Below, in pieces: positions 8,521 through 23,533 of a stretch of DNA of 47,308 nt. Below the pieces are notes generated by a model, which was not told the DNA's origin, searched no databases, and saw only the letters and a list, made by a program, of their open reading frames with translations. The first letter of the stretch is position 1. Every line of letters begins with the position of its first letter. The position numbers and the translations under genes are program-made. Source of the DNA: a virus; the IMG/VR virus record IMGVR_UViG_3300042691_019039, positions 1-47,308 of that record; one strand, given 5' to 3'.

Positions 8521-9060
8521 ATGGAACAAAAATTATCACCATACAAAGATGAACTAACAAAAGCAATGACATTTCTTGCCGAAAAAGAAGATACAATTTT
8601 TATAGGACAACAAATAGTTTATGCAGGAAACCCAATGAGTACAACTTTAACAGAAGTACCAAAAGAAAAAATGATTGAAGTACCTGTTATGGAAGAAACC
8701 CAAATGGGTATGAGTTTAGGATTAGCAATTACAGGCAAAACTGTTATTTCGTTTTATCCTCGTTGGGATTTTTTAGTATCAGCTGCAAATCAATTGATAA
8801 ATCACGCAGATAAATTTGAACATATGACTGGCAAAAAAGCGAATATATTAATTCGTGTTGGCGTTGGTAGTAAAGACCCATTAGATCCAGGAATTCAACA
8901 TAGAAATGATTATAGTAAGGAATTTAAATCTATATTACAATATACAAATGTGCATGAATTAAAAAAAGTTGAAGATATTTATAAAATGTATACAACATGC
9001 TATGAGCAAGGTGGAATACACATTTTAGTAGAATGGCCTGAATTATATTACAAAAATTAA
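8521..9060 (+). CDS. TPP-dependent enzyme, E1-beta-like (Pyr-domain) subunit
   Basis: The 179-residue protein matches the pyrimidine-binding domain of transketolase and E1-beta subunits. VPVMEETQMGMSLGLA (residues 54-69) carries the Glu (E58 or E59) that activates the TPP aminopyrimidine; then come FYPRWDFL, a helix AANQLINHADKF and IRVGVGSKDPLDPGIQH. The C-terminal transketolase_C domain of full E1-beta (about 330 residues) is absent. With the PP-domain subunit at 79-708 it would supply the two domains a minimal TPP enzyme needs, although the genes are separated by about 7.8 kb. It might transfer a two-carbon or acyl unit during branched or chain-extended sugar synthesis; that part is inference. 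Confidence 0.82.
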   Translation: MEQKLSPYKDELTKAMTFLAEKEDTIFIGQQIVYAGNPMSTTLTEVPKEKMIEVPVMEETQMGMSLGLAITGKTVISFYPRWDFLVSAANQLINHADKFEHMTGKKANILIRVGVGSKDPLDPGIQHRNDYSKEFKSILQYTNVHELKKVEDIYKMYTTCYEQGGIHILVEWPELYYKN

Positions 9061-10635: not shown

Positions 10636-13600
10636 ATGAATTTAGTAGAAGTAGATAAACCCGTAATAAAAAAGACCGTAGTAGTATATTCAGGTCGTTT
10701 TCAACCATTTCATAAAGGGCATTATGCATCTTATGAAAAATTGGTTTCAAAATTCGGTGCGGAAAATGTATACATTGGAACATCCAATGACCAATCAGGC
10801 CCAAAATCCCCATTTTCATTTAAAGAGAAAAAAGAGATTGCAACTAAAATGTTTGGGATACCTTCATCCAAATTCGTACAAATTCGTAATCCATACCAAC
10901 CTGTAGAGATATTGAAAAAATTTGATGGACAAACAACACAATATATTGCAGCAGTTGGTGAAAAGGATGCAACTAGATTGCAAGGAAATTATTTCAAACC
11001 ATATAAAGGAAAAGCAGGATATGGTTATGAAGAAATTGGTTATGTATACGCAGTACCTGCAGAACAAAATCCTATTAGCGGAACGGATGTTCGTAAATGG
11101 TTAGGAGCAACGGATAAAGAAAAGGCTAAAAAGGGATTCTTAAAAGCATATCCAAAATTTGATAAAGAAGTATTTAAAATGATAACAGGTAAACTTAATG
11201 AAAATTTTATAAAAGGTTATCCATCGAAAGAAGATGTAAAAAAGATACATAGTAATAACGATAAGTTTAGAGCAACGGCAACTACCGATGATTCTTATGT
11301 ATATGACCCAATTTCAGAATTAATTGGAAGAGTTGCTGCAGAACAAATGTTTAATGATTTTTTAGCAGAATATTTGAAAGAAGCACCTAACAAAGCATTA
11401 GACCAAGATATTACATATACAAATGTAAAAGGACAGCAAAAGAAAATAAAAGCAAGAGATGCGTTAAGATTACCAAAAGACCATCCGGCACATATACAAG
11501 CTAAAAAAATAGCAGGGCCTGATGATGCTCCGGTTTCAGAACCAAAAGCAAAAGAAGAACCGGGTAAAGCAGCACAGGCAGCAGCTAAACCGGCCCAATC
11601 CGGCCAACCTGTTAAGAAAGACCAAACGCAGCAGGGTAAATCGGATAAAGCAGCTGCAGGTGGAGAACAAGGACCACCACCTGAACAAAAATTAAGTGGT
11701 GCAGAACTAAAATCATCTGCAGAAACTTCACCAAAAGAAAAGGCGTCTGCAGAAAAAGAAGAAAAAGTTAAACAGGCATTGGATAATGCAAGAAAAGGTT
11801 TATCCGATGAAGATAATCAAACCATAGATAAAGTAAATAATCCCGATTCTCCTGAAAGAAAGGGAATGATGGATAATGTTAAGAATGGTTTTAAAAAATT
11901 TGGTAAAGGGATTGTAAAATGGTGGAATCATCAAACTGAAATGGTTGGTGGTACAATGGGTGCTATTAAAGATATAGCTACAACCGGAAAATTAGGAGCA
12001 GTTAAAGATAAAGATGGTAAAAATAGACATTGGAGTGAATTCGCATCCGTTGGTAGAGGTGGAGGTCCTGAATGGGAGGAAGTTGAAGTTGATGAAAAAG
12101 ACCATCACGGACATCCTACCGGAAAAAAGAAAATAGAAAAAAGACCAAAGGTATCTGAATATGCTTCGGATGAAGAAAAAGAATTATTTAATCAGTCTTG
12201 GGAAAGAAGTAAAAAACAAAAAAAAGATTGTAAAAACTTTGCAATAACTGCTGGTCTATTATTAGGTTCTATGGCATTGGGTGGAGCAGGAGTTGCAGCT
12301 ATTAAAGCGGCAACCGCAGGTGCAGGTGCAGGTGCAGTAGGTGCTGCAGCAGGTAGTGGTGCAGCAGGTGCATTTACACACGGTGCAGCAGGATTTGGTA
12401 TACATTTGGGTAAAGATATTGCAAAACATGCTACATTGGAAGCAATGGGTATGGGTGGGGTGAGCGCAGCGGGAACAGGTGCTGCATTATCAACCGCTAC
12501 TTTGGGTATTTTAGAAAATATTGATGATAAAGGAGGAAATAGTAAGTTTCTTTTAAATGTAATGCAGAAAGTTATGGAAAAAATGGAAAAATATAAACTT
12601 TCCGATGAACAACTTTTAAAATCAATAGAAGATTATACAAAAAATAAACCAAAGCAAGATGCAGCAGATTTATTAAAAGAAAATCTTTCAGAAACAAAAC
12701 AACAATCCATTCAACACTTTGTAGAGTTTGCAACAAAAAGATTAAAGTTAAAAGAAACTCCAAAAATAAGTTTAGTAGGTGGTAGAGAATTTGCAGAAGT
12801 AAAGAGTAGTTTAGGTGGTTTTAATCCTGATACTAAAGAAATATATGTTGCAACCGAAGGTAGATTAACAGCAGATATATTAAGAACACTTGCACATGAG
12901 ATGGTTCATAGAAAGCAAGATGAAATGGGATTAGTTAGAAATCCAGAAACTGATGGTAAAGATGGTTCCCCAATTGAAAATCAGGCACATGCAGTAGCAG
13001 GAATCTTAATGAGAGAATATGGTAGAATTAATAAACAAATTTATAATGAAGATATTAATGTAGATGTTGATAAAGGTGATACCGTTTTAATGGGTAAATT
13101 TAAGAACAAAAAAGTACAAGTTAAAGATATTAGTAAAGACCAACATGGAATGCCAACTATAAACGGAAAGCAAGCAACCACATTTCGTAAAGTAGATGAA
13201 ATGGGTAGTAATGATGTTCACCTTACTAATGTAATGAAATTATACAGAAACGCAACATTTCGTAAAAGAATAAATGCATATCTTTTTGGTAGAGCAAATA
13301 TGCCGGCAAATCCAAATGCAGTAGCAAGAGAATTGAGGAATATGGATTACAAAGAGATAACTCAAATGGAAAAAGAGTTAAATATTCAACCTGATTTAAA
13401 TGAAGGATTGTTATTAGAAGGTGGAGCATATGGACATATGTCGCATCCGTTTGATGATATGGATTTAACATTTGGAGACTTAAAAAATATAATTACAGGA
13501 GCACTTAATGGTGATTTGGGAGTTGTTAGAGAAAAAACCGATGGACAAGCACTTGCAATAAGTTGGAAGAATGGTAGATTGATAGCAGCTAGAAATAAAG

Positions 13601-14607
13601 GACATTTACAAAATGCAGGAGCAAATGCTATGGGTATAGAGGATGTTGCATCTAAATTTGGTGGTAGAGGTGGATTAACCGATGCATATAACTTCGCAAT
13701 GAAAGACCTTTCCGCAGCAATAAGTTCACTTTCAGAAGCACAAAGAAAAAAAATATTTAATGAAGGTAAATGTTTTATGAATTTAGAAGTAATCTGGCCA
13801 CAAAGTGTAAATGTTATTCCTTATGGACAAGCTCTTTTGGTTTTTCATAATACAACTTGTTATGATGAAAGAGGTGTAGCGGTTGGAGCAGACCAGGGAG
13901 CATCATCTACATTAGCAGGAATGATTAAACAAGTGAATGCGGACGTACAATCTAAATATACAATTCAAGGACCTCCTATTACAGAAATTCCAAAAAATGA
14001 AGATTTGAGTTCAAAGCAAGGAAAATACCTTTCTAAACTTAAAAAATTACAATCAGAATTTGGATTGAGTGATGGTGATACGGTTGCAATGTATCATCAA
14101 AGTTGGTGGGAAAATTTTGTAGATGAAAAATGTCCTGTAAAAGTTGATAAACTTACAAAAGAAGCATTGGTTAGAAGGTGGGCATTTGGTGATAAAAGTT
14201 TTCGTTTAAATACGATATCAAATCCAAAAATACAAGAGTGGGCTATGGATAATGATAAAGTAAATGTAGCAAAACAACAAAAAGATAATATTAAACCATT
14301 TGAAGATATATTTTTAGGAGTTGGAGCAGATGTATTAGATTTTGTTGGAAGTGTATTGACAGTGCATCCCGAAAAAGCAATTAGAGCAATTAAAAGTAAA
14401 TTTAAATCAATTGCATCTGATGTGAGAAGTGGTGGGGATAAAACAAAAATACAAAAATTAAGACAAGAATTAAAAAGATTAAATAGTTTAGGTGGAATAG
14501 ATAGAGTAGTAGCATCTGAAGGTATTGTATTTTTCTATAACGGAAAAACTTATAAACTTACAGGTACATTTGCACCACTTAACCAAATTTTAGGATTATT
14601 TTATTAA
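10636..14607 (+). CDS. multidomain protein: cytidylyl/NMN-adenylyltransferase-like, zinc-peptidase motif, ligase-like domain
   Basis: This 1323-residue protein joins several recognisable modules. Residues 15-190 form a nucleotidyltransferase: GRFQPFHKGH with HxGH at 26-29 and ISGTDVR at 147-153, as in NMN adenylyltransferases and cytidylyltransferases. A Lys/Ala/Glu-rich linker (about 290-390) follows, then a Gly/Ala-rich hydrophobic stretch near 536-630 that could cross a membrane. HEMVH at 754-758 with E781/H785 in ENQAH fits a zincin peptidase. Residues about 930-1323 look like an ATP-dependent ligase/nucleotidyltransferase: KTDG (K967, motif I), E1051, EGIVF (E1295, motif IV) and YKLTG (K1307, motif V). 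It opens the packaging/head module. A virion-packaged enzyme injected with DNA is an attractive guess. The ATG at 10632 is out of frame. Confidence 0.75.
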   Translation: MNLVEVDKPVIKKTVVVYSGRFQPFHKGHYASYEKLVSKFGAENVYIGTSNDQSGPKSPFSFKEKKEIATKMFGIPSSKFVQIRNPYQPVEILKKFDGQTTQYIAAVGEKDATRLQGNYFKPYKGKAGYGYEEIGYVYAVPAEQNPISGTDVRKWLGATDKEKAKKGFLKAYPKFDKEVFKMITGKLNENFIKGYPSKEDVKKIHSNNDKFRATATTDDSYVYDPISELIGRVAAEQMFNDFLAEYLKEAPNKALDQDITYTNVKGQQKKIKARDALRLPKDHPAHIQAKKIAGPDDAPVSEPKAKEEPGKAAQAAAKPAQSGQPVKKDQTQQGKSDKAAAGGEQGPPPEQKLSGAELKSSAETSPKEKASAEKEEKVKQALDNARKGLSDEDNQTIDKVNNPDSPERKGMMDNVKNGFKKFGKGIVKWWNHQTEMVGGTMGAIKDIATTGKLGAVKDKDGKNRHWSEFASVGRGGGPEWEEVEVDEKDHHGHPTGKKKIEKRPKVSEYASDEEKELFNQSWERSKKQKKDCKNFAITAGLLLGSMALGGAGVAAIKAATAGAGAGAVGAAAGSGAAGAFTHGAAGFGIHLGKDIAKHATLEAMGMGGVSAAGTGAALSTATLGILENIDDKGGNSKFLLNVMQKVMEKMEKYKLSDEQLLKSIEDYTKNKPKQDAADLLKENLSETKQQSIQHFVEFATKRLKLKETPKISLVGGREFAEVKSSLGGFNPDTKEIYVATEGRLTADILRTLAHEMVHRKQDEMGLVRNPETDGKDGSPIENQAHAVAGILMREYGRINKQIYNEDINVDVDKGDTVLMGKFKNKKVQVKDISKDQHGMPTINGKQATTFRKVDEMGSNDVHLTNVMKLYRNATFRKRINAYLFGRANMPANPNAVARELRNMDYKEITQMEKELNIQPDLNEGLLLEGGAYGHMSHPFDDMDLTFGDLKNIITGALNGDLGVVREKTDGQALAISWKNGRLIAARNKGHLQNAGANAMGIEDVASKFGGRGGLTDAYNFAMKDLSAAISSLSEAQRKKIFNEGKCFMNLEVIWPQSVNVIPYGQALLVFHNTTCYDERGVAVGADQGASSTLAGMIKQVNADVQSKYTIQGPPITEIPKNEDLSSKQGKYLSKLKKLQSEFGLSDGDTVAMYHQSWWENFVDEKCPVKVDKLTKEALVRRWAFGDKSFRLNTISNPKIQEWAMDNDKVNVAKQQKDNIKPFEDIFLGVGADVLDFVGSVLTVHPEKAIRAIKSKFKSIASDVRSGGDKTKIQKLRQELKRLNSLGGIDRVVASEGIVFFYNGKTYKLTGTFAPLNQILGLFY

Positions 14608-14618
14608 ATTAAACAGTT

Positions 14619-15287
14619 ATGCAAAAAAGAACAAGTTGGGACCAAACAAACAAACACATTCACAAATCTCGTAAAAAGATTATCGACACCGTATTTGGTA
14701 GAGAAGATAATACTCAAAGAGTTTTTGGTTACGAAAAAGAGGCAGAACAAAAAAGAGAAGTTGGTGAAAAATGGACAGATAGTAATGGTAAAGAATGGGA
14801 ACAAAGAGAGGGTTATGTTGCATCTGTAAATACATTTGATGATGTAAGAGAATATCTGAAAAAAATTACAACTTGCAAAAATGAGGATTGTAAAACTCCA
14901 AAATATTCCCAAGCAGATAAAAAATTAATAGTAAGGGCCGGATATTGTGTAGATTGTAATAGAAAGTATGAACAAAAGTTAAAAGATGATGGGACATATC
15001 CTTTTTATGAAGATTACAAAATAACTTGCAATAAGTTAGCATATTTAAGAGATTATAAACAAGAATTAGAAGATAATTTAAAATATGTAACAAAAGATTA
15101 TCAGATGGTATATGAGACGGGGCATGTTGAAAATTGGAAATGGGATATAGATATAGATAAAGTAAAAGCAGACCTTAAAAAAGATATTGATAGTTCTTAT
15201 GAAGCATTAGAATTATTATTAAATAGAAAATTGTTATTGGAAGATAAGTTACGTGAATTAAAACATCCAGAAATTATAAAAAATTAA
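14619..15287 (+). CDS. zinc-ribbon and coiled-coil protein, function unknown
   Basis: The 222-residue protein has a basic N-terminus, a putative four-Cys zinc-binding site (C86, C91, C110, C113; CxxxxC and CxxC arms) and a helical, charged C-terminal half likely to form a coiled coil. Its position two genes before the large terminase makes a small-terminase or packaging-accessory role possible, but I see no diagnostic gp16 signature. It is separated from the preceding gene by 11 bases and from the next by 2, so it is expressed with the packaging genes. Confidence 0.6.
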   Translation: MQKRTSWDQTNKHIHKSRKKIIDTVFGREDNTQRVFGYEKEAEQKREVGEKWTDSNGKEWEQREGYVASVNTFDDVREYLKKITTCKNEDCKTPKYSQADKKLIVRAGYCVDCNRKYEQKLKDDGTYPFYEDYKITCNKLAYLRDYKQELEDNLKYVTKDYQMVYETGHVENWKWDIDIDKVKADLKKDIDSSYEALELLLNRKLLLEDKLRELKHPEIIKN

Positions 15288-15289
15288 TT

Positions 15290-15946
15290 ATGAAAAAACA
15301 TTTAACATTTAAAAACATTGCCATAACGGCATTGATTATTTACATTCTTTTACAATGGTTTAATCCTGGAGGAGTTATGCCTGGTGGAAGAACTATCAAA
15401 ATTGATGGTAAAAAGTATGAAGTTATTAAACACACAATCGATACCGTTGAGGTAGAAAAGACCAAAGTTGTAACTAAAAAAGGTAAAGATATTATACATG
15501 AAATTATTGATGTAGATACTTTAGTTCTTAAAGAATTAGTAAACGTAGATAGTGCGGCTATTCTTAAAGATTATCTTTCAAAAGTAATTTATAAAGATAC
15601 CTTATTCCTTCCTGATTCATTAGGAACGGTTGCATTGGTTGATACTATTACTAAAAACAGAATTTTAGGTAGAACATTTGATGCAAAAGTTAAGCAAAGA
15701 GAAATAAAAGAAACTCTTATTGTTAAAGAACCAGCTAAAAACCAAGTTTATTATGGTTTGAATGGTGGATTTAATAAAGCAGATGTTGTATCTCATGTTG
15801 GTGCAGGATTGATGTTAAAAACCAAAAAAGATAAACTATATCAATTTGGTTTAGGTGTTACGAATAGAACAGTTGATGGAACTAATGGTTCTCTTTCTCC
15901 GTTCATAAATTTTGGAACATATTGGAAAATAAAAATTAAAAAATAA
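15290..15946 (+). CDS. membrane-anchored protein with beta-rich C-terminus
   Basis: The 218-residue protein begins with a short basic segment followed by one hydrophobic helix (IAITALIIYILLQWF, about 10-24), consistent with an inner-membrane anchor. A middle region of short strands with repeated Thr/Val/Asp follows, and the C-terminus has alternating beta-type sequence (VYYGLNGGF, VGAGLMLK, YQFGLGV, PFINFGTYWKI). A topology with a TM anchor and a periplasmic part would fit an i-spanin-like or envelope-interacting role. No cysteine lipobox is seen. The stop shares one base with the terminase start (TAATG). The function is not established. Confidence 0.6.
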   Translation: MKKHLTFKNIAITALIIYILLQWFNPGGVMPGGRTIKIDGKKYEVIKHTIDTVEVEKTKVVTKKGKDIIHEIIDVDTLVLKELVNVDSAAILKDYLSKVIYKDTLFLPDSLGTVALVDTITKNRILGRTFDAKVKQREIKETLIVKEPAKNQVYYGLNGGFNKADVVSHVGAGLMLKTKKDKLYQFGLGVTNRTVDGTNGSLSPFINFGTYWKIKIKK

Positions 15947-17553
15947 TGAGTGTTCAAGGGCAACCAAAGAAAACACTTAAAGAGATAATTGCTGAAGAAT
16001 ATCGTAAATGTGCGCTAGACCCCGTTTACTTTATGAAAAAATATTGTGTGATTCAGCATCCGGTGAGAGGGAAAATACCCTTTCACCTTTATCCTTTCCA
16101 GGAAGAATGTATGACCGATTTCAAAGACAATCGTTTCAATATTATTCTTAAAAGTAGACAATTGGGATTATCAACCCTTTCTGCTGGTTTTATTCTTTGG
16201 AAAATGTTATTTAACCAAGACTTTAACGCATTGGTTATTGCAACAAAAGTAACAGTAGCTAAAAACCTTGTAGAAAAGGTTAGAGTAATGCACGATTTAC
16301 TTCCTGTTTGGTTGAGAGATGGTGGTAATAGTTCTGTTGAAGATAACAAACTATCACTTAAATTAAAAAATGGTTCTCAAGTAAAAGCAATTGCATCCTC
16401 ACCTGATGCCGGACGTTCGGAAGCACTTTCTCTACTTGTTGTGGATGAAGCAGCATTCATTAGAGATATTGATGAGATTTGGTTATCAGCACAATCAACA
16501 CTTTCAACGGGTGGTTCTGCAATCGTATTATCAACTCCAAATGGTGTGGGTAACTGGTTCCATAAAATGTGGGTAGAGGCAGAAAGTGGAACAAATGGAT
16601 TTAATACTATTAAACTACATTGGACTGTACACCCTGAAAGAAATCAAGAATGGAGAGATGAACAAACTCGTATTTTAGGACACAAAGGAGCAGCACAAGA
16701 ATGCGATTGTGACTTCATTGGTTCCGGTGATAACGTAATTGACCCACAATTATTGTTATGGTACAAGGAAACATACATTATGGACCCGGTAGAAAAAAGA
16801 GGATTTGATGGAAACCTTTGGGTATGGGAACATCCAAATTATAATAGACAATATATGGTTGTAGCCGACGTTGCTAGAGGTGATGGTTCGGACTACTCGA
16901 CAGCACAAGTTATTGATATTGAAGATTGTTCGCAAGTAGCAGAATACAAAGGAAAGTTAGATACTAAAGACTTTGGAAACTTCCTAACAGCATTAGCCAC
17001 CGAATATAACAATGCACTTTTAGTAATAGAAAATTCAAACGTAGGTTGGGCAACGATTCAACAATGTATAGATAGACAATATGGTAATCTATTCTATATG
17101 AGTCAGGATTTAAAATATATTGATGTTGAAAAACAAATGAACAATCGATATTACAGAGATGATAAAAAAATGGTGGCAGGATTTAGTACAACAACAAAAA
17201 CCAGACCTCTTATTATTTCAGCATTAGATACTTACATGAATGAAAAAGAAATTCTTATTCGTTCATCTCGTTTAATTGATGAGTTATTTACATTCATTTG
17301 GAATAGTGGTAGAGCAGAAGCTATGAAGGGTTATAATGATGACTTGACGATGGCATTGGGTATCGGTTTGTGGGTTCGTAATACAGCATTGAGATTAAGA
17401 CAAGAAGGTATTGATTTAACAAAATCAATGTTGGGTTCTTCTCAAGTAAAAAGATATGAAGGTTTAATGACCGTGAATCATTTAAAGAAAAATCCTTATG
17501 AAATGGAATTGAAAAGAGGTGAAACGGAGAATTTACATTGGTTATTGGGATAA
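15946..17553 (+). CDS. terminase large subunit (gp17-like)
   Basis: The 535-residue protein has the full architecture of a phage packaging motor. The ATPase has a deviant Walker A at 69-77 (KSRQLGLST, with K69 ahead of the loop and Leu at the usual Lys position) and Walker B LLVVDE (D167, catalytic E168), with STPNG as the coupling motif. The RNase-H-like nuclease has acidic residues D308 (VVADVARGD), E362 (LVIENSN) and D465/D466 (GYNDDLTMA). It cuts concatemeric DNA and pumps it through the portal. The length is close to the T4 family (about 610). It is translationally coupled to the upstream gene by TAATG. Confidence 0.95.
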   Translation: MSVQGQPKKTLKEIIAEEYRKCALDPVYFMKKYCVIQHPVRGKIPFHLYPFQEECMTDFKDNRFNIILKSRQLGLSTLSAGFILWKMLFNQDFNALVIATKVTVAKNLVEKVRVMHDLLPVWLRDGGNSSVEDNKLSLKLKNGSQVKAIASSPDAGRSEALSLLVVDEAAFIRDIDEIWLSAQSTLSTGGSAIVLSTPNGVGNWFHKMWVEAESGTNGFNTIKLHWTVHPERNQEWRDEQTRILGHKGAAQECDCDFIGSGDNVIDPQLLLWYKETYIMDPVEKRGFDGNLWVWEHPNYNRQYMVVADVARGDGSDYSTAQVIDIEDCSQVAEYKGKLDTKDFGNFLTALATEYNNALLVIENSNVGWATIQQCIDRQYGNLFYMSQDLKYIDVEKQMNNRYYRDDKKMVAGFSTTTKTRPLIISALDTYMNEKEILIRSSRLIDELFTFIWNSGRAEAMKGYNDDLTMALGIGLWVRNTALRLRQEGIDLTKSMLGSSQVKRYEGLMTVNHLKKNPYEMELKRGETENLHWLLG

Positions 17554-21633: not shown

Positions 21634-22230
21634 ATGCCAGCAGTAAGTAAAGCACAACAAAGATTTATGGGTATGGTTCACGCCACTCAAAAGGGTGATA
21701 TGGAAGCACCATCTCCAGAAGTTGAAAAAGCAGCAGACTCTATGAAAAAGAAAGATGCTAAAGATTTTGCATCTACAAAACATGCTGGTCTTCCTGATAA
21801 AAAAGAAGAACAAATACAAAAGATTAAAGAAATCATTCGTAAAATAGTTAGAGAAAGAATGATTGATGAAATGAATGTTACAGGAAATGTACAGGGATAT
21901 AATACACCCCATGCATTTGGTAAACCTGATGATGAAAAAAAGAAAGGAAAAAAAGTAGCTGACTTAACAGGATATTCAGTTGTAAATGAAAATCGTTGGT
22001 TAGAATTAAAAAGAGATGAATCAACGGCACAGGCAAAAATAGGTAGAGGTATTTCAAATATCAATAAACAATTGAAAGAAATGGAAAGATTTCTTAACTG
22101 GTATGGTAAAATTAAGAATGAGAGTGGTGTAGATAATAAAAGTTATTGGAAAAGAACTAATCACCATATTTATGCTATAAAGGAAAGATTAATTAAATTA
22201 GACCAAAAAATCAGACAAATATCAGAATAA
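21634..22230 (+). CDS. DUF3008-like N-terminus, helical C-terminus
   Basis: The 198-residue protein begins PAVSKAQQRFMGMV, then AADSMKKKDAKDFAST and KHAGLP, which matches the DUF3008 pattern common in phage and bacterial small proteins. The rest has a GYNTPHAFG segment and a basic helical C-terminus (GISNINKQLKEMERFLNWYG). The function of DUF3008 is not established; in phages it tends to lie near head genes. The IKEIIRKIVRE helix resembles the N-terminal helix of the next gene (LKELIKQVVKE), suggesting a common binding element. It ends one base before the next gene. Confidence 0.65.
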   Translation: MPAVSKAQQRFMGMVHATQKGDMEAPSPEVEKAADSMKKKDAKDFASTKHAGLPDKKEEQIQKIKEIIRKIVRERMIDEMNVTGNVQGYNTPHAFGKPDDEKKKGKKVADLTGYSVVNENRWLELKRDESTAQAKIGRGISNINKQLKEMERFLNWYGKIKNESGVDNKSYWKRTNHHIYAIKERLIKLDQKIRQISE

Positions 22231-22942: not shown

Positions 22943-23533
22943 ATGAATAAAGGATTATTAATAGAAACTCATTTGTTTGAAGCAAAACTTGTAAAGGAAG
23001 AAAATGGAACGTATTTAGTTTCAGGTATTCTTCAAAGAGCAGGCGCGCCAAATCAAAATAATAGAAGATATCCTAGAGAAATCCTTGAAAGAGAGTGTCA
23101 AAAATACGAACAACTTATTAAGGAACGTAGAGCATTGGGTGAATTAGACCATCCGGATTCTCCTGTTATTAATCTTAAAAATGTATCTCATAATATTAGA
23201 GAAATTTGGTGGGATGGTGATGATGTAATGGGTAAAGTGGAAATTCTATCAACACCTTCAGGCAACATCCTTAAAGAATTATTAAAGAATAACATTCGTT
23301 TAGGTATTTCATCAAGAGGACTGGGTTCTGTAAAAGAATTAAATGATGGCACTGTAATGGTGCAAGAAGATTTTGAATTGGTAGGTTGGGATTTCGTATC
23401 TAACCCATCAACTCACGGAGCATTTATGGCACCTGTAAATGAATCAAAGCAGTGGAAACAAATTGCTGAAGAATGTGGTAAGTGGTGTAAATCACAAGAC
23501 CTTATGAGAGAAATTATAATTGAATTAAACTAA
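22943..23533 (+). CDS. prohead core protease (gp21-like)
   Basis: The 196-residue protein has the layout of the T4 gp21 serine-protease family: RRYPREILE near 41-49, GELDHP with catalytic His70, a VMGKVEILSTPSG strand, and RLGISSRGLGS with the nucleophile S123 or S124, then GWDFVSNPS. It would digest the scaffold and trim capsid proteins at (L/I)xE sites before DNA packaging. Its own N-terminus contains LIE (residues 6-8), a possible self-cleavage site. It starts one base after the preceding stop, between the portal and scaffold genes as in T4. Confidence 0.9.
   Translation: MNKGLLIETHLFEAKLVKEENGTYLVSGILQRAGAPNQNNRRYPREILERECQKYEQLIKERRALGELDHPDSPVINLKNVSHNIREIWWDGDDVMGKVEILSTPSGNILKELLKNNIRLGISSRGLGSVKELNDGTVMVQEDFELVGWDFVSNPSTHGAFMAPVNESKQWKQIAEECGKWCKSQDLMREIIIELN

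Follow-up and report, generated by a model that had tools for sequence, protein, structure and literature searches.

A multidomain phage protein encoded upstream of the large terminase gene combines a nucleotidyltransferase, a zinc peptidase and a predicted ligase domain of the RNA-ligase type

The stretch of DNA analysed here, referred to as the window, comprises 47,308 nucleotides of a viral genome (IMG/VR record IMGVR_UViG_3300042691_019039, positions 1 to 47,308). On its plus strand it contains one intact, uninterrupted open reading frame (ORF) which starts with ATG and encodes a protein of 1323 amino acids (aa). The protein consists of a short leader, a nucleotidyltransferase (NT) domain, a variable linker, a zincin-type peptidase, a KOW-like module, a second variable linker and a ligase-like domain (LIG). 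The assigned features are listed in Table 1. Only NT is recognised by Pfam. Since it unites at least two unrelated enzyme domains in one chain of a mobile element, the protein belongs to the polyvalent proteins. Three enzyme-like domains in a single chain had already been described in a first-pass annotation of this DNA, and the intact reading frame as well as the conserved motifs confirm this. All motifs listed there (HxGH, ISGTxxR, a Gly/Ala stretch, HEMVH, KTDG, EGIVF and YKLTG) are present and the catalytic ones are conserved; overlooked were the ligase motifs Ia and III, the third zinc ligand, the KOW-like module and the LxE sites at the domain borders. In the protein the motifs are located at residues 26-29 (HKGH) and 147-153 (ISGTDVR) in NT, at ~535-625 (Gly/Ala-rich tract), at 754-758 (HEMVH, followed by the invariant Glu) in the peptidase, and in LIG, besides KTDG, at 984-988 (AARNK), 1049-1052 (NLEV), 1295-1298 (EGIV) and 1306-1310 (YKLTG).

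Table 1. Features of the multidomain gene and of two downstream head genes in the window (a slash marks a putative cleavage position; J1 to J3 are the domain junctions).
Feature	Residues	Coordinates	Strand	Basis
Whole gene: NT / linker / zincin / KOW-like / ligase-like multidomain protein	1323 aa	10636..14607	+	full-length homologues
N-terminal MNLVE, [LI]xE leader, probable capsid-targeting and cleavage site	1-5	10636..10650	+	[LI]xE in 20/24 distinct N-terminal forms despite indels
HIGH-superfamily NT domain	12-186	10669..11193	+	PF01467 27.9 bits; PHROG 395; PDB profile matches
J1, LNE, probable head-protease site	187-189	11194..11202	+	18/19 distinct forms; 31 observed vs 4.7 expected
Variable low-conservation linker	190-679	11203..12672	+	conservation profile; composition; Gly/Ala-rich tract ~12238-12510 inside
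J2, LKENLSE, two probable head-protease sites	680-686	12673..12693	+	21/23 distinct forms; 47 observed vs 9.7 expected
Zincin (gluzincin-like) peptidase	~690-805	12703..13050	+	conservation profile; HEMVH 12895-12909; third ligand Glu781 12976-12978
KOW-like module (GDTVLMGKFKNKKV...)	806-850	13051..13185	+	conservation profile; separate gene in pelagiphage HTVC008M
Second variable linker	851-920
J3, LNEGLLLE/GG, probable head-protease site(s) before LIG	921-928	13396..13419	+	[LI]xE right before GG in 196/229 LIG sequences
LIG, covalent nucleotidyltransferase-like, long helical insert between motifs III and IV	929-1323	13420..14604	+	invariant motifs, model, Foldseek, hhalign
LIG motif I, KTDG, with putative AMP-accepting Lys	967-970	13534..13545	+	K, D, G invariant
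LIG motifs IV (EGIVF) and V (YKLTG)		14518..14565	+	invariant
Terminase large subunit		15946..17553	+	PHROG 2, 6.9e-47; conserved downstream neighbour
Head maturation (prohead) protease, candidate enzyme for LxE cuts		22943..23533	+	PHROG 207, 3.7e-57

The conservation profile was built from 35 non-redundant full-length homologues together with the protein of Microcystis phage Mel-JY01. HxGH, ISGTxxR, HExxH, KxDG, EG[IL]V and KLTG recur at corresponding positions in practically every full-length homologue found. The catalytic residues are all kept in the 35 homologues and the motif columns are invariant or nearly so; this conservation rules out chance motif matches. The ratios of nonsynonymous to synonymous substitutions (dN/dS) against six homologues amount to ~0.04-0.16 for NT, 0.06-0.18 for LIG and 0.07-0.24 for the peptidase, while the linker lies above the enzyme domains in most pairs and reaches up to 0.55. 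Every domain is under purifying selection.

The match of NT to the Pfam family CTP_transf_like spans residues 17-154 and exceeds the cut-off of 21 bits. The best profile matches in the PDB were obtained with a bacterial NadM/Nudix nicotinamide mononucleotide (NMN) adenylyltransferase (NMNAT; 3.4e-6), an archaeal NMNAT (1.3e-5) and phosphopantetheine adenylyltransferase (3.5e-5). NT stays far below the curated NCBIfam cut-offs for NadM-type NMNATs (29 versus 127 bits for NF002243, 26.2 versus 181.2 bits for TIGR01527), and the matches to these models cover mainly its HxGH-bearing N-terminal half. By its sequence NT is a nucleotidyltransferase of the HIGH superfamily, for which the synthesis of NAD or of activated nucleotides, as suggested in the first-pass annotation, is a candidate role.

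LIG carries the motifs I (EK[TL]DG), Ia (AARNK or TARNK), III (E), IV (EG[IVL]VF) and V (YKLTG) in the order of the RNA ligases, and they are kept down to 31-39% identity. In the AlphaFold model, motifs I, III and IV lie on strands, and the helical insert separates III from IV. The first-pass annotation had proposed a structure search for each domain. For the peptidase such a search led to gluzincins (see below); for LIG nine of the ten best PDB structures in the Foldseek ranking are RNA ligases (T4 Rnl2 2hvr, 2vug, the 8uce series and 6vte), with non-significant E values of 0.24-0.7 and low TM-scores. In the BFVD the own family ranks on top, and phage RNA ligases are among the next named matches (E 0.028 and 0.031). 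An hhalign comparison with PF09414 members picked out motif I/Ia as the first alignment (P 0.0097) and motif IV as the next, unprompted. LIG is, as judged from sequence and model, very probably a covalent nucleotidyltransferase of the RNA-ligase type, for which ligase chemistry is predicted. The data suggest a family of its own, with motif order and structure ranking as remote evidence for an RNA-ligase fold.

Three further observations concern this domain. LIG was considered as a member of DUF6267 (PF19782), since the layouts GHMxHPFD...KTDG and HLEHLED...KWDG are alike. Two profile comparisons were non-significant (hhalign probability 0.2-0.5) and none of the 31 LIG members gave a Pfam match to DUF6267, so this assignment was rejected; by analogy DUF6267 may be a functional counterpart. 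At locus L076 (5995-12458), and also at L077, a split intein separates the K of KTDG from the T (REK/CIAGDT...VHN/TDGQ), and a free-standing ORF between the intein halves of L076 (10592-11323) may by its sequence encode a homing endonuclease. Essential active sites are where such insertions are typically found. Directly downstream of a stand-alone LIG gene in a 462-kb phage (L315, 9268-11226) a product with a ligase-like ENLDGS stretch without Lys is encoded, which possibly represents a second, degenerate ligase-like family.

The active residues of the peptidase (H76, E77, H80 and E103 in the numbering of the peptidase alignment A2) are invariant. HExxH together with a glutamate on the next helix, the hallmark of gluzincins, is found in the peptidase model on helices 67-85 and 101-120. 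Foldseek matches of this model include PprI/IrrE and the minigluzincins abylysin/selecase (probability 0.96-0.99, E at least 0.008), and a PDB sequence search with the peptidase profile gave no usable match. The module is optional: 83 ORFs show the order NT, peptidase, KOW and LIG, and many others retain NT and LIG without a peptidase. Synechococcus phage S-SRM01 encodes a free-standing peptidase homologue directly upstream of a free-standing NT gene.

Genes of the LIG type are found on hundreds of viral contigs and form a large, virus-restricted family. A scan of 84,980 species genomes returned three short contigs of metagenome-assembled genomes only, which are probably phage, and a bacterial or prophage origin was rejected on this result. 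In 146 of the 148 loci for which 5 kb or more of downstream sequence is available, the large terminase gene follows on the same strand, at a distance of 0.5-1.9 kb (decile values, 220 loci). The arrangement of NT-LIG upstream of the terminase is retained in Mel-JY01 and in a 484-kb uncultured phage. The earlier statement that the gene opens the packaging module holds, as the terminase (15946), the portal (18720), the head protease (22943) and the major capsid protein (26234) all follow in the window. No sequence similar to the T4 late promoter (TATAAATA) was detected directly upstream of the gene, and a PADLOC search gave no match. Beside LIG in 216 of 232 loci, in the window at 14619-15287, lies a gene for a protein of 222 aa with a CxxxxC...CxxC-like pattern, for which no Pfam, PHROG or NCBIfam match was found.

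[LI]xE is the consensus of the T4 gp21-type prohead protease. Such sites are found at the N-terminus, J1, J2 and J3, where they persist while neighbouring residues and spacing vary. Inside LIG they are depleted (34 observed versus 99.6 expected). The major capsid protein of the window has a plausible protease site as well (QLLDE/A near residue 60). On this sequence pattern the head protease probably cleaves the protein at its junctions. The first-pass annotation had suggested that the peptidase could process the protein or a host target. For self-processing the peptidase is not needed, because it is an optional cassette while gp21-type sites sit at every domain border; a self-processing role is unlikely as a general rule, given the many family members without a peptidase.

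The internal proteins of T4 carry an N-terminal capsid-targeting sequence (CTS), which is removed by gp21. A comparable N-terminus, MKxFxxF[ILV]xE, is found in 40 of 41 distinct N-termini among the NT proteins of freshwater cyanophages, with one or two first-position variants, and also in S-CREM2 gp154 and S-SCSM1 ORF91; the leader of the window's family is shorter. Cytidylyltransferase/NMNAT proteins were detected by mass spectrometry in virions of S-SM1 (PMC3037559) and of S-CREM2, there together with the adjacent gp155 and gp156 (PMC10665884). An NMNAT-type NT was likewise detected in virions of S-SCSM1, of which ORFs 89-93 are annotated as virion proteins (PMC9602691). S-SCSM1 ORF90 was considered as a virion-proven DUF6267 protein and rejected, as no match was found. 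The unannotated S-CREM2 gp156 (L400, 8013-8726) is a nucleotidyltransferase of the Pol-beta type (PF01909, 3.4e-4). In the window itself, the product of 21634-22230 resembles DUF3008 and S-SCSM1 ORF93, an annotated virion protein, and that of 17574-18671 matches DUF5872 and resembles S-CREM2 gp160, which has a mass-spectrometry match in virions. By sequence, both are probably internal head proteins too.

A divergent clade of the family indicates which enzymes accompany NT and LIG. In 22 of its ORFs a P-loop kinase of the AAA_33/Zeta type, similar to polynucleotide kinase (PNK), is joined to NT-LIG, with GGPGSGK[ST] in every ORF that has a complete N-terminus. In other members the fusion partner of this core is a PolyA_pol/CCA-adding head with an RNA-binding domain (1.5e-29 and 8.7e-7), an RNase_T exonuclease or a ParB-like domain. 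In pelagiphage HTVC008M, DUF6267 (a KWDG protein), KOW, the same kinase family and NT are encoded by four adjacent genes. The surroundings of 45 DUF6267 genes contain NT in all 45 cases, at most 4 kb away, as well as KOW in 38 cases and the kinase in 33. Kinase, CCA-adding enzyme and ligase together form an RNA end-healing and sealing set.

A phage-like protein of 1907 aa from a Flavobacteriales bin (L396, 835-6555) combines KOW, a CCA-adding head, NT and LIG in one chain. Flavobacterium phage Immuto (L151, 10153-12876) encodes, ~9 kb upstream of its large terminase, a protein of 907 aa with an N-terminal Pol-beta-like nucleotidyltransferase (GS...DxD), an NMNAT-like NT and two HExxH-like stretches. 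In the window, a stand-alone HAD phosphatase with a match to the PNKP phosphatase domain (PF25109, 1.2e-18) is encoded at 1906-2343, 8 kb upstream within a sugar-like gene block; it could act on RNA 3' ends as a partner phosphatase, or else on sugars. By eye, the products of 40-708 and 8521-9060 resemble the two halves of a transketolase-like, thiamine-diphosphate enzyme, on either side of a sugar-nucleotide gene block.

We propose that the gene product is an internal head polyprotein, which would be made late together with the packaging genes and drawn into the prohead by its N-terminal leader. A gp21-type protease would then cut after the leader, after NT, before the peptidase and before LIG, and the freed enzymes would be ejected with the DNA into the new host. 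There, LIG and end-processing enzymes may repair or modify RNA at a stage when repair genes encoded by the phage cannot yet be expressed; the most likely targets would be tRNAs or other RNAs cleaved by a defence nuclease of the host. The end-processing partners would be NT and perhaps the upstream PNKP-type phosphatase in this phage, and a PNK-like kinase, a CCA-adding enzyme or an exonuclease elsewhere. The zinc peptidase may be an exchangeable effector cassette on the same delivery route. Packaging in the head with subsequent injection, already suggested in the first-pass annotation, we infer by comparison with relatives and hold to be quite likely; it is supported indirectly by the position in the head operon, the conserved [LI]xE sites, the CTS-like N-termini of cyanophage NTs and the published virion proteomes. 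The earlier idea of a ligase acting on RNA is likewise favoured through relatives, because these fuse NT-LIG to a PNK-like kinase, a CCA-adding enzyme or an exonuclease and because of the gene run in HTVC008M. By this analogy, RNA repair or modification is the reasonably probable purpose of the protein. The joint reading of a packaged, cleaved and injected RNA-repair polyprotein of a T4-like aquatic phage has, in its main lines, a slightly better than even chance.

Several findings weigh against this proposal. LIG gave no significant Pfam, PHROG or PDB sequence match, PF09414 (RNA ligase) was matched by none of its 31 members, and the mean confidence of its model is moderate (pLDDT 64). Motif V of nucleic-acid ligases is usually KxK, and LIG has a single Lys there. 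Genomes with the fused gene also encode ordinary PF09414 RNA ligases at other places (loci L402-L406, on the contigs of L129, L008, L057 and L076); the presence of such ligases in the same phage lineages means that RNA repair is not uniquely assigned to the fused protein. The kinase and CCA fusions belong to the divergent, mostly marine clade and not to that of the window. LxE shows no enrichment over the protein as a whole (14 versus 10.3 expected), so only its positional conservation is informative and not the global count. In 31 relatives J3 reads LLM/GG instead of [LI]xE, and the homologous sequences are non-independent, by which the binomial significance of the [LI]xE conservation is overstated. 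The virion-detected cyanophage NTs are only distant relatives of that in the window (S-CAM1 NT is 29% identical, E 0.01), and published virion detection concerns NT relatives only, none with LIG and none from the phage of the window.

The same data can be explained differently. NT could be a true NMN adenylyltransferase, injected to rebuild nicotinamide adenine dinucleotide (NAD+) destroyed by host defences such as Thoeris, with the C-terminal domain engaged in NAD-linked chemistry. The best sequence matches of NT are indeed NadM-type NMNATs, the authors of the S-SCSM1 study propose that the virion NMNAT alters host NAD (PMC9602691), and NAD+ salvage by phages is established (PMC9503650). However, phage NadM always co-occurs with NadV (PMC9503650), and neither NadV nor Nudix nor another NAD partner is seen in the window. 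The low scores of NT against the NMNAT cut-offs, mainly over the HxGH half, and the identity of its partners, of which the conserved one is a ligase and the remaining ones are RNA-end enzymes, likewise make this explanation unlikely. Less probable still is a packaging-associated DNA ligase which remains inside the infected cell, or at the portal, and closes nicks in the DNA concatemers ahead of or during packaging by the terminase. The near-invariant position just upstream of the large terminase would fit, and the ligase motifs are common to DNA and RNA ligases; yet fusions to CCA-adding enzymes and PNK-like kinases, the leader, the LxE junctions and the NT relatives in virions speak for another role, and in Kyanoviridae the NT and DUF6267 genes sit away from the terminase.

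An injected effector polyprotein, the peptidase and NT of which modify or cleave host proteins in an Alt-like takeover while LIG adenylylates a protein or a small molecule, would agree with what is typical of polyvalent proteins, namely zincin peptidases as well as exchangeable effector modules (PMC5512222), and covalent nucleotidyltransferase folds can act on other substrates. The constant core, however, is NT-LIG, the peptidase is missing from many members and the additional modules are enzymes of RNA or DNA and not of protein modification, so that we consider this very improbable. A structural or scaffold protein with relic enzyme folds is hardly credible: the gene sits among head genes and its long linkers are poorly conserved, but the catalytic residues are invariant across 31-39% identity and the domains are under strong purifying selection.

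Returning to the packaged RNA-repair polyprotein, a more far-reaching version can be put forward tentatively, at less than even confidence. A widespread lineage of T4-like phages from aquatic habitats may inject a protease-liberated RNA-repair kit centred on a new family of RNA ligases, which would mend defence-cut RNA before the first phage gene is expressed, and the exchangeable cassettes (kinase, CCA-adding enzyme, exonuclease, peptidase) might tune this kit to the defences of the host. Virion NT proteins and polyvalent proteins are already known. A terminase-linked, multiply cleavable fusion with a new ligase family and swappable RNA-repair modules was not found described in Pfam, PHROGs, PDB or the literature examined. 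The analysis exposes a large phage ligase family which is missing from these three databases. NMNAT-like/cytidylyltransferase proteins of cyanophage virions have repeatedly been found without an assigned role, and the LIG family supplies probable partners for them, namely the ligase-like domain, the PNK-like kinase and the CCA-adding enzyme. This set of partners offers a directly testable function for virion NTs, the delivery of RNA repair together with the genome. A further prediction is that a single packaged chain can yield several enzymes through cleavage by a prohead protease.

Among known systems, the virion NTs of T4-like cyanophages (S-SM1 T4-GC190, S-CREM2 gp154 and S-SCSM1 ORF91) share with the window a HIGH-type NT in late T4-like phages. 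They have a CTS-like N-terminus of their own and mass-spectrometry detection, and the neighbours S-CREM2 gp160 and S-SCSM1 ORF93 are related to head genes of the window. Unlike the protein described here they are distant, stand-alone proteins without a ligase or peptidase fusion, and are not encoded beside the large terminase. The run DUF6267-KOW-kinase-NT in HTVC008M brings together the same kinds of modules (a KWDG ligase-like protein, KOW and NT), and LxE occurs near the N-termini of DUF6267 proteins; here, however, the genes are separate and lie beside DNA-replication genes, and the similarity between DUF6267 and LIG is statistically unsupported. T4 Pnkp and the RNA ligases Rnl1 and Rnl2 resemble the LIG family in the set of ligase motifs and, for the kinase-fused relatives, in the logic of kinase plus ligase. 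The T4 enzymes are expressed after infection; LIG is unmatched by PF09414, and the ordinary ligases of that family are encoded separately in related phage genomes. The T4 internal proteins IPI-III and Alt, with their short N-terminal leader, head-protease processing and injection with the DNA, correspond to the route proposed here, but they are single-function proteins and none is a multi-enzyme chain with ligase motifs. Polyvalent proteins, described from phages as well as plasmids (Iyer et al. 2017, PMC5512222), likewise join several unrelated enzymes in one chain, contain zincin-like peptidases, occur in phages with portal-terminase packaging and are presumed to be injected. That study describes processing driven by the peptidase, whereas the prohead protease is the likelier processor of the protein in the window, the core of which is NT together with an undescribed ligase family.

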